Source: Haladaptatus paucihalophilus DX253
GTDB taxonomy: Archaea > Halobacteriota > Halobacteria > Halobacteriales > Haladaptataceae
Reading direction: 5' to 3'
DNA length: 64,000 nucleotides
Assembly: GCF_000376445.1 (NCBI RefSeq)
Contig: NZ_AQXI01000003.1
Span: 124,001 to 188,000, forward strand
How positions within the stretch are numbered: the stretch's first letter is position 1; each line of letters starts with the position of its first letter. This document shows positions 29,899 to 33,177 of this stretch, in pieces. The notes beneath the pieces are model-generated. The model searched no databases and was not told the origin of the DNA. It worked only from the letters and a program-made list of their open reading frames with translations. The position numbers and the translations under genes are program-made.

Positions 29899-30912
29899 TC
29901 AGTCCGAAATCTCGTCGCCCGTTTCGAGTCCGCTCGCCAGCGCGCGGTGGACTCGACCCTCTCCAGCCACCCAATCGCCGGCGAAAAAGAGGTCCGCCGC
30001 GGCTCCCTGTCGAAGCACGTTCCTGTCGGCCCCGTCGTCCGGGAGCGCATCCCGCCAGCGAATCACGTCGTACCAGTCCGGTGCCGCGAGCGAGTGTTCG
30101 GAGAGGAGGTCGGCCGCCCGGTCCGCGACCGCGGTGGCGACCTCGAAATCGTCGTCATCGTAGTGGGTCGCCGACCAGTCGGGGGCCATCTGCACGACGA
30201 GCAGACTCTCGCCGTCCGGGACGTGACCCGGCTTGCAGGATTCGCGCGCCACCCATCCGACTTCGTGTTCTTTGTCCGCGTTCACCAGCGCGTAGTACGG
30301 TCGCTCGATGTCGAACGAGTAGTGCAGCGCGACGGAGAGTATCGGACGGTAGGGCACGTGACCCACGTGCTCGCGGAGTTCCCGACGCGCCTCGTCGTCC
30401 CACGCCGCGAGGTCGAGGAGGGACGCCGTTATCGGCGCTGGCGGGGTGAGCACGAGCGCGTCCCACGGCCCGTACTCGTCGCCGTCGTCGTCCTCGACGT
30501 ACCACGCGTCGTCACGGCGAAGACCGGCGATACGGGTGTCGGTCCTGACCGTCGCGCCGCTGGCCTCGCACAACCGCTTCCCGAGCGTCCCGAGGCCGTT
30601 CCGATACGTCCACTTCGGCGTCTCCTCGTCGCGCCCTTCGGAAATCTCGCCGTCAGCGTCGAACGTCCAGACGGGACCGTCGGTTTCGACCAAGCCGTCC
30701 CCGAGTTCCCGAACGACCCGGGAGACGCGCTCGTCGTCGCTTTTGACGTAGTTCGCGCCGACGTCGTAGACGCAGCCCGCCCGCTCGTGCGTCGCGGCGC
30801 GGCCACCGACGCGCTCGTTGCGCTCGAAAACCGTCACGTCCGCGTCGTCACCGGCGACGAGCGCGACGCCGAACCCGGCGACACCGCCGCCGACGACGGC
30901 GATGCGTTTCAC
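29899..30912 (-). CDS. FAD-dependent oxidoreductase (renalase/amine-oxidase-like)
   Basis: 337 residues. FAD fold IAVVGGGVAGFGVALVAG (about 4-21), second FAD motif NERVGGRAATHERAGCVYDVGANYV, and C-terminal GDWVAGEGRVHRALASGLETGDEI that binds the flavin. Resembles renalase-type oxidases. The start codon is GTG at 30912; a short upstream reading frame (30909-30956, MAILGNATFIEGSLT) ends over it but I do not count it as a gene. Substrate unknown. Confidence 0.88.
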   Translation of the reverse strand: MKRIAVVGGGVAGFGVALVAGDDADVTVFERNERVGGRAATHERAGCVYDVGANYVKSDDERVSRVVRELGDGLVETDGPVWTFDADGEISEGRDEETPKWTYRNGLGTLGKRLCEASGATVRTDTRIAGLRRDDAWYVEDDDGDEYGPWDALVLTPPAPITASLLDLAAWDDEARRELREHVGHVPYRPILSVALHYSFDIERPYYALVNADKEHEVGWVARESCKPGHVPDGESLLVVQMAPDWSATHYDDDDFEVATAVADRAADLLSEHSLAAPDWYDVIRWRDALPDDGADRNVLRQGAAADLFFAGDWVAGEGRVHRALASGLETGDEISD

Positions 30913-31050
30913 GTCAGGGACCCCTCGATGAACGTCGCGTTGCCCAGAATCGCCATGCTAGCCGACCGTTCGACCGCACGCGGGAAAGCGATTACGGCGC
31001 GGCGTGCAGGCTACTCCGCCTCGCTCGTCTATTCGCTTTCCAGTTCGACG

Positions 31051-31180
31051 GATAGTATATTTCAGTAAGAATCAGTGTTTTCTAGTATATTTTAGTGTCA
31101 TACGAGAAAATTCAGTATTGAGAACAGTCGTTCAGTAAAATCAGATACGATTCAGTATTTCACAGTTTACGATAGTACAC
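31051..31180. repeat. 10-bp-phased decamer array upstream of the HerA-like ATPase gene
   Basis: Thirteen successive 10-bp units with consensus TTCAGTATAT. AGT falls at positions 4-6 of the unit in 10 of 13 units; exact TTCAGTA occurs at 31061, 31111, 31131 and 31151, all multiples of 10 apart. GC in this stretch is about 31% (40 of 130), far below its surroundings. The 10-bp spacing puts AGT on one face of the helix. It lies between the divergent FAD oxidoreductase and HerA genes. Confidence 0.85.
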
Positions 31181-31236
31181 GAGTGAGAGACGGTACAATC
31201 GAGCCGTCGGTACTCGAAACTCGAATCGTCCGAACG

Positions 31237-31244
31237 TTTATACC
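31237..31244 (+). promoter_or_regulatory. probable TATA box of the HerA-like gene
   Basis: TTTATACC preceded by CGAACG fits BRE plus TATA; it implies a leader near 85 nt before the ATG at 31354. A weaker AT patch (AAAATACCCC near 31297) could serve a shorter leader. The phased array ends about 55 bp upstream of this box. Confidence 0.4.
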
Positions 31245-31353
31245 GGAAGCCGCGACCAGACACGACCATCCGTCGGTGTTTCGACCCGCATCGACGCAAA
31301 ATACCCCTGATGCAAAAATTGAAGGAATCTCTGTCGAATCGGGATGTAAGAGA

Positions 31354-33177
31354 ATGGACAACGAACAACAACTGCCGGTCGGTCATCTCGTCGCCGACGA
31401 CACCGAAGTGGCGATTCCGGTCGTCGAAATCCTGACAGGACGGGGATTCGTCACCGGAAAGTCGGGAAGCGGGAAGTCGAACACGGCGTCCGTCGTCGTC
31501 GAGCAACTGCTGGACGCCGGCTATCCGGTGGCCATCATCGACGCGGACGGCGAGTACTACGGCCTGAAAGAGGAGTACGAACTCCTCCACGTCGGCGCTG
31601 ACGAGGAGTGTGACATCCAAGTCGGCGCGGAACACGCCGAGAAGGTCGCGTCGCTGGCGCTCGAACAGAACGTCCCCATCATCATCGACGTGTCGGGATA
31701 TCTGGACGAGGACGAGGCCGACGCGCTCATCCGCGAGACGGCGCGCCACTTGTTCGCCAAGGAGAAGAAGCTGAAAAAGCCGTTCCTGCTGGTGGTCGAG
31801 GAGTGCCACGAGTACATCCCGGAGGGCGGCGGGATGGGCGAGACGGGCAAGATGCTCATCAAGGTCGGCAAGCGCGGGCGGAAACACGGACTCGGAATCA
31901 TGGGCATCAGCCAGCGCCCGGCCGACGTGAAAAAGGACTTCATCACGCAGGCGAACTGGCTGGTCTGGCACCGCCTGACGTGGGAAAACGACACGAAAGT
32001 CGTCAGCCGAATCGTCGGCAGCGAGTACGGCGAGGAGGTTCCAAACCTGAACGCCGGGGAGGCCTTCGTGCAGACGGACTGGACCGACAGCGGAATTCGA
32101 CGCGTGCAGTTCAACCGCAAACGGACGTTCGACGCGGGCGCGACGCCGGGATTGGACGACTTCGAGCGACCGGAGCTCAAATCCGTCAGCGACGCGCTGA
32201 TGGAGGATTTGGAGGGAATCACGGAACTACAGGAACAAGAACACGACCGCGTTGCCGAACTCGAAAGCCGACTGGAGCGCAAGCAGGAACGAATCGCCGA
32301 GTTGGAAAACGAGCTGCAGACGGCGCGAGACGTGTCAAACGCGGCGCGAAAGATGGCGAACGCTCTCGCCCACGGCGACCTCGGCGGCCCCGAGGAGTTC
32401 GAGGAACGACTCCGGGAGAAAAACGAGCGAATCCGGGAGCTCAGAGAGCGCGTCGAGGAACTGGAGAACGAGCAGACGGAACTCCGCTCGTTCGGCGAGT
32501 GGAACCGCGATATCGAGGACATCGGGGAACCGGAGAGCCGAGACGACCACGACGATTACGATGACTTCGAATCGGTCGAATCGGATGCGCCGACCGACGC
32601 CGACGGAACGGACACCGCCGAATCCGACGAGTCTACCGTCGAATCCGCCGAATCCTCCGAACCCACCGACGAACGTCTCGAAACCACCGACGGAACCGCG
32701 ACGGCGGGGAAGACGTGGGGAGCGAACGATTCGGAGGGACGGAAAAGCCCGGACGACAAAGGCTCGATAGAGGCCTACCAACGGGCGCTTCGGGAGCGCG
32801 GGCGGCGACTCGGGGGCGCCGTCTCGAACGATTCGGTTTCCGAAACCGCCTCGCTCGTGGAGTTAGCGAACGCGGACCCCGTTGCGGTACGAATCGACGC
32901 TGCACGACGTGAATCGTTGTGCAACGAGGACCACACGTGGGATATCGTCGAGACGCTCGCAACGGACGGACCGATGACCGTCCACGAAATCGCGGCCGCG
33001 GTAACGGCGTCCGTCGAACAGATTCAAAGCCTTCTGACGGAGCTGCGAAATCGGTCACTCGTCACGCGCAACGACGACCGTCAGTACGGCCTCGACAGGA
33101 GGGAGATGATTTCCATCATCACCGACCCCGACGAGCGGGCACATCACAGCGAGCTTCACTCGCAGTGGCGAGATTAG
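31354..33177 (+). CDS. HerA-like (DUF87) ATPase with coiled coil and C-terminal winged helix
   Basis: 607 residues from MDNEQQLPVGHL. Walker A GKSGSGKSNT (35-44), Walker B FLLVVEECHEYIPE (144-157) and RGRKHGLGIMGISQRP with the arginine-finger region typical of HerA/DUF87. Then a coiled coil (about 290-390), an acidic Asp/Glu/Ser linker (about 395-480), and a winged helix (about 540-600: MTVHEIAAAVTASVEQIQSLLTELRNRSLV). It likely forms a DNA-translocating ring; without a nearby NurA nuclease its job is not repair by the usual pair. Unusual upstream array may regulate it. Confidence 0.92.
   Translation: MDNEQQLPVGHLVADDTEVAIPVVEILTGRGFVTGKSGSGKSNTASVVVEQLLDAGYPVAIIDADGEYYGLKEEYELLHVGADEECDIQVGAEHAEKVASLALEQNVPIIIDVSGYLDEDEADALIRETARHLFAKEKKLKKPFLLVVEECHEYIPEGGGMGETGKMLIKVGKRGRKHGLGIMGISQRPADVKKDFITQANWLVWHRLTWENDTKVVSRIVGSEYGEEVPNLNAGEAFVQTDWTDSGIRRVQFNRKRTFDAGATPGLDDFERPELKSVSDALMEDLEGITELQEQEHDRVAELESRLERKQERIAELENELQTARDVSNAARKMANALAHGDLGGPEEFEERLREKNERIRELRERVEELENEQTELRSFGEWNRDIEDIGEPESRDDHDDYDDFESVESDAPTDADGTDTAESDESTVESAESSEPTDERLETTDGTATAGKTWGANDSEGRKSPDDKGSIEAYQRALRERGRRLGGAVSNDSVSETASLVELANADPVAVRIDAARRESLCNEDHTWDIVETLATDGPMTVHEIAAAVTASVEQIQSLLTELRNRSLVTRNDDRQYGLDRREMISIITDPDERAHHSELHSQWRD

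Follow-up and report, generated by a model that had tools for sequence, protein, structure and literature searches.

Helically phased decamer arrays dispersed through intergenic DNA of Haladaptatus paucihalophilus DX253

The array upstream of a HerA-like ATPase gene

The window analysed here, a 64-kb stretch of contig C3 of the H. paucihalophilus DX253 genome (G000), carries an array of phased 10-bp units in the gap between two divergently oriented genes. The features, in window positions, are:

29899..30912, minus strand: FAD-dependent oxidoreductase gene, the divergent neighbour, outside the element
31051..31180, plus strand: helically phased decamer array, 13 units of WWYAGTRNNW (G000:C3:155051-155180)
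31051..31100, plus strand: core block of the array, five consecutive YAGTR units
31101..31180, plus strand: alternating flank, YAGTR in every second unit only (pattern 01010101)
31237..31242, plus strand: TTTATA between the array and the HerA-like gene, read by eye and presumed to be the TATA element of this gene
31354..33177, plus strand: HerA-like (DUF87) ATPase gene, a neighbour whose membership in the element is not supported

The first-pass annotation had described AGT in one 10-bp register in 10 of the 13 units of 31051-31180, exact TTCAGTA copies at 31061, 31111, 31131 and 31151, and a GC content of about 31%. All three descriptions were confirmed, as AGT starts in the same register at 31054, 31064, 31074, 31084, 31094, 31114, 31134, 31154, 31164 and 31174, the four copies lie where they were placed, and the GC content was measured at 30.8%. 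Scored as presence (1) or absence (0) of a YAGTR unit, the array reads 1111101010101. The proposed comparison of lag-10 autocorrelation with shuffled sequence revealed an excess (z = 2.5, p = 0.0095), and against 2000 dinucleotide shuffles of 31051-31180 the z values at lags 10, 20, 30 and 40 were 2.5, 2.8, 3.3 and 4.6, with empirical p values of 0.0095, 0.0065, 0.0005 and <0.0005. Taken together, the lag-20 and lag-40 signals exceed those at lags 10 and 30, since it is at alternate positions that units are missing.

When both strands of the 64-kb window were scanned with a periodic profile, trained on 18 arrays with the window array among them, this array alone was recovered (31051-31180, score 64), and no other score on either strand exceeded 12. 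An Rfam search of 30500-31700 gave no family match at E <= 1, which does not support a structured RNA, and promoter and terminator scans around the array found nothing.

A dispersed family of polar arrays

The window array is one member of a dispersed family. Pattern searches located 27 arrays of the unit WWYAGTRNNW in the host genome, a number to be read as a minimum, with 24 on contig C1 (2.95 Mb) and three on C3 (0.36 Mb). The remaining four contigs, about 1.0 Mb in all, yielded no array in the same searches (p = 8e-4 if density were uniform). The pattern AGT(N7AGT)x3 matched the host genome 33 times and its reversed control once; a match at C1:2.177 Mb was dropped as a simple AGTGG repeat. 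The relaxed searches that gave the 27 were accompanied by reversed-motif controls with 1 and 0 matches. The herA orthologue of H. caseinilyticus sits on a 394-kb plasmid, so C3 may well be a secondary replicon, and the arrays would therefore not be restricted to the main chromosome.

Array lengths range from about 40 to 140 bp, with 2160 bp of array sequence in total, and 115 AGT units gave the preference WWYAGTR with A/T-rich edges. Pairs of YAGTR were counted 80, 89, 53, 56, 28 and 35 times at distances of 10, 20, 30, 40, 50 and 60 bp, as compared to 0-8 times at other distances. The motif occurs 186 times on the array strand and 15 times on the opposite one, a bias that points to polar recognition rather than simple bending. 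Many arrays share the design of the window array, a short consecutive block followed by a flank that loses every second unit: the longest YAGTR run is five in eight arrays and six in one, and missing units share parity beyond shuffles (p = 0.0002).

Some arrays have peculiarities of their own. Those at L048, L255, L056 and L260 contain a recurrent in-register unit that lacks YAGTR, TTCGATGGCA or close to it, while in others the penultimate unit often ends in GGA before TTCAGTA. At L255:2838-2960, tandem 20- and 23-bp repeats with AGGAATCAGT lead into the array upstream of a gene for a 102-aa winged-helix-like protein.

Placement, relatives and known systems

All 27 arrays are intergenic with respect to genes called by a codon model for which the sequences themselves served as training set. 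Several tests of placement, spacing and orientation were run, and their p values are given uncorrected. Convergent gene pairs are enriched at the arrays (9/27 vs 7/62 other intergenic gaps, p = 0.018) and divergent pairs depleted (4/27 vs 26/62, p = 0.015), and between tandem genes the arrays ignore the direction of transcription, seven pointing with the genes and seven against. Reading of the flanking proteins of all 27 revealed no obvious common theme, and no gene common to array flanks was seen across G000, the sister species G001 and G014, a member of another genus.

On C1 the arrays are widely spaced, on average 123 kb apart and never closer than 46.7 kb. This minimum has p = 1.7e-5 against random placement if the census is complete, and p = 3.4e-4 when the weakest arrays are left out and the contig is taken as linear; the coefficient of variation of the spacing gave p = 0.014. 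The census rests on threshold-based pattern searches and the spacing tests presume its completeness, thus overlooked weak arrays could weaken the spacing result. Orientations along C1 tend to alternate (18 runs of 24, p = 0.029), a marginal result from one of several tests.

Among relatives the family is patchy. We counted about five arrays each in G001 and G014 and one or two in G002, and at the stringency of the pattern searches there were no matches in G004, the closest genome by sequence at the loci compared. A strict five-unit pattern matched 8 of 392 genomes of the order, some of these matches being simple tandem repeats. Two arrays in Natrialba were the only haloarchaeal matches among those listed from named genomes, the rest being mostly unrelated repeats. 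At the SRP19 locus both G000 and G001 have an array, though the gap itself is not alignable; the corresponding gaps in G002, G003 and G005-G008 are only about 25-150 bp, and the insertion that G004 has there contains no array. Widening the core to CGGTR mainly brought up 5-bp GCGGT tracts in other genera, which we treated as a different simple repeat; tracts of this period in G015, G016, G020 and G043 fit the relaxed pattern YRGTR and are probably a different element. In the open-licence literature we found no report of matching decamer or phased repeats in haloarchaea.

Known systems offer several partial parallels. In ParR-parC and similar plasmid centromeres, small DNA-binding proteins occupy direct repeats of about 10-12 bp. 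As in parC, the arrays are polar, helically phased short direct repeats (10-bp pitch, 186:15) that would suit a protein oligomer. However, a plasmid has a single parC site, next to the par operon, whereas the two array-bearing contigs carry 27 sites between them. No operon resembling ParM/ParR was recognised beside the arrays when the starts of the flanking proteins were read at all 27, and none emerged from Pfam searches of nine flanking genes of eight other arrays and of the HerA-like gene. Phage packaging (pac/cos) sites are likewise phased direct repeats, bound by small terminase rings, and 10-bp YAGTR arrays also occur near terminase genes on three viral contigs that the pattern scan picked up. 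The 27 arrays, in contrast, lie among assorted, mostly housekeeping genes with no terminase seen adjoining them. The viral arrays (L355:3460-3519, L367:8913-9132 and L417:3735-3844) are non-identical, and are located as a packaging site might be.

SegB of the SegAB segregation system of Sulfolobales has tens of specific sites over an archaeal chromosome, tied to its organisation and segregation, and in this the arrays resemble it (PMC12284271). Each SegB site is a single 13-bp palindrome, TCTAGASTCTAGA, and more than 80% lie inside genes (PMC12284271), whereas the arrays measure about 40-140 bp, are polar and lie between genes in 27 of 27 cases. The SegB core AGA(G/C)TCT is absent from the 2160 bp of arrays, and the best match to the full 13 bp has four mismatches. 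In Haloferax volcanii the small ribbon-helix-helix protein CdrS binds 18 sites, on the main chromosome only, with a symmetric motif mostly 41-110 nt upstream of transcription starts (PMC8406309); the arrays differ in being polar and in avoiding divergent gaps. Since the tests of membership failed or could not be made, we do not assign the arrays to parC, packaging or SegB sites.

What the arrays may be

Our preferred reading, held with moderate confidence, is that the arrays are a dispersed family of cooperative protein-binding sites serving chromosome architecture or segregation. Cooperative assembly of a sequence-specific protein along the array would best account for the polarity and the pitch, for a core that is constrained while its spacers vary freely, and for positional persistence, and a role at the scale of the chromosome is favoured over transcriptional control by the wide spacing, the preference for convergent gaps and the unrelated neighbours. 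The suggestion in the first-pass annotation of a nucleoprotein assembly site on one DNA face fits the strand-polar YAGTR, the strict 10-bp pitch and the existence of 27 arrays; its alternative of a bent region fits poorly, with predicted curvature only mildly raised and strand symmetry absent. Protein binding, oligomerisation and the architectural or segregation role are steps that we infer from sequence. A putative protein would recognise one YAGTR in every 10 bp, always on the same strand and helix face. It would nucleate where up to about five units follow one another without a gap, and from this core extend the assembly in one direction. In the flank every second unit would be strongly contacted, corresponding to a 20-bp dimer step. 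Such polar nucleoprotein assemblies, a mean of 123 kb apart on C1, could mark the chromosome for folding or segregation, and the arrays might then act as dispersed centromere-like or anchor sites. The patchy distribution (no matches in G004 at the stringency searched, 8/392 with the strict pattern) counts against this reading, as one would expect an essential segregation system to be retained more steadily. The occurrence of arrays on C3, probably a secondary replicon, also speaks against it.

A more specific proposal, which we regard as possible and put forward tentatively, is that the arrays serve a haloarchaeal chromosome as anchor or centromere-like sites with a defined orientation and regular spacing, read by an undescribed polar DNA-binding polymer, so that the direction of each site would matter. 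Direction matters in this way for CTCF sites in animals.

In our judgement the arrays are unlikely to be operators for a global regulator of transcription, such as the 102-aa winged-helix-like protein, which would then also control itself. This protein is encoded beside the array at C1:1.519 Mb and its relatives are annotated as MarR; an in-register array of five AGT lies just upstream of its gene not only in G000 but also in G003, G005 and G006, and the window array likewise lies upstream of the herA promoter. Against operators, the arrays are scarce in divergent gaps, which are rich in promoters, prefer the 3' ends of convergent genes and take no account of gene direction; the flanking genes suggest no regulon, and G001 has several arrays although its best match to the 102-aa protein is only 33% identical. 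As a candidate binder of the arrays, this protein was tried and set aside when co-occurrence failed: G001 has arrays and no clear orthologue, and few or no arrays accompany the orthologues of G003, G005, G006 and G008.

That the arrays are neutral or selfish tandem repeats spreading through intergenic DNA appears improbable. Some do lie in DNA gained relative to other genomes (at the RNase Z locus the intergenic region is about 490 bp in G000 vs 60 bp in G004), several adjoin another dispersed, GC-rich repeat, and L043 and part of L255 show true tandem copies. However, identity at variable bases is 0.395 within arrays and 0.375 between them, and as units within an array are thus no more alike than units across arrays, L043 excepted, slippage fails to explain most arrays. 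Nor does slippage predict the 47-kb minimum spacing or the alternating pattern.

We consider it very improbable that intrinsically curved or easily wrapped DNA simply positions a general chromatin protein, with no base-specific reading. A/T and G are out of phase with each other over the 10-bp period, with an AT fraction of 0.8-0.86 at positions 9, 0 and 1 and 0.12 at position 4, and a calculation with wedge parameters predicts mildly raised curvature (mean z 1.6; above 1.64 in 10 of 27 arrays). A bending code should be strand-symmetric, yet YAGTR is split 186:15, and AGT is fixed although many other A/T-phased sequences would bend too.

The earlier idea that the array is used by the adjacent HerA-like ATPase found no support, and a site specific to this protein deserves hardly any credence: adjacency alone speaks for it, the other 26 arrays adjoin unrelated genes, and in the relatives compared the herA orthologues stay in place while the array is absent, with at most a decayed remnant in G001 (CAGT, CAAT and CAGT at 0, 20 and 30 bp). 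A similar TTTATA was seen by eye near herA in several relatives that lack the array.

The appearance of archaeal centromeres, and whether these are clustered or dispersed, are counted among the open questions in a 2016 review (PMC5120986), and a 2022 review describes the basis on which loops form in archaea as incompletely resolved (PMC9764264). The 27 arrays, being recognisable in sequence, intergenic and widely spaced, are a concrete test object for both the centromere and the loop question, and the nearest relative G004, without matches, is a natural comparison for the array-bearing G000.

Two observations on the surroundings of the arrays may be added. At L047:2942-3185 an array is found on the 3' side of a gene for an Orc1/Cdc6 replication initiator (Pfam Cdc6_C). 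Separate GC-rich dispersed intergenic repeats (e.g. GGGGGCTTTCGAGG and CGCGAGGGATGACTGAGCGAATGCGAAGGAATCGGTTGGGGAGG) often adjoin arrays; this repeat family occurs at L039, L046, L051 and L053 in G000 and at L011 and L261-L265 in G001, and the copies at L051 and L053 share 83% over 113 bp.
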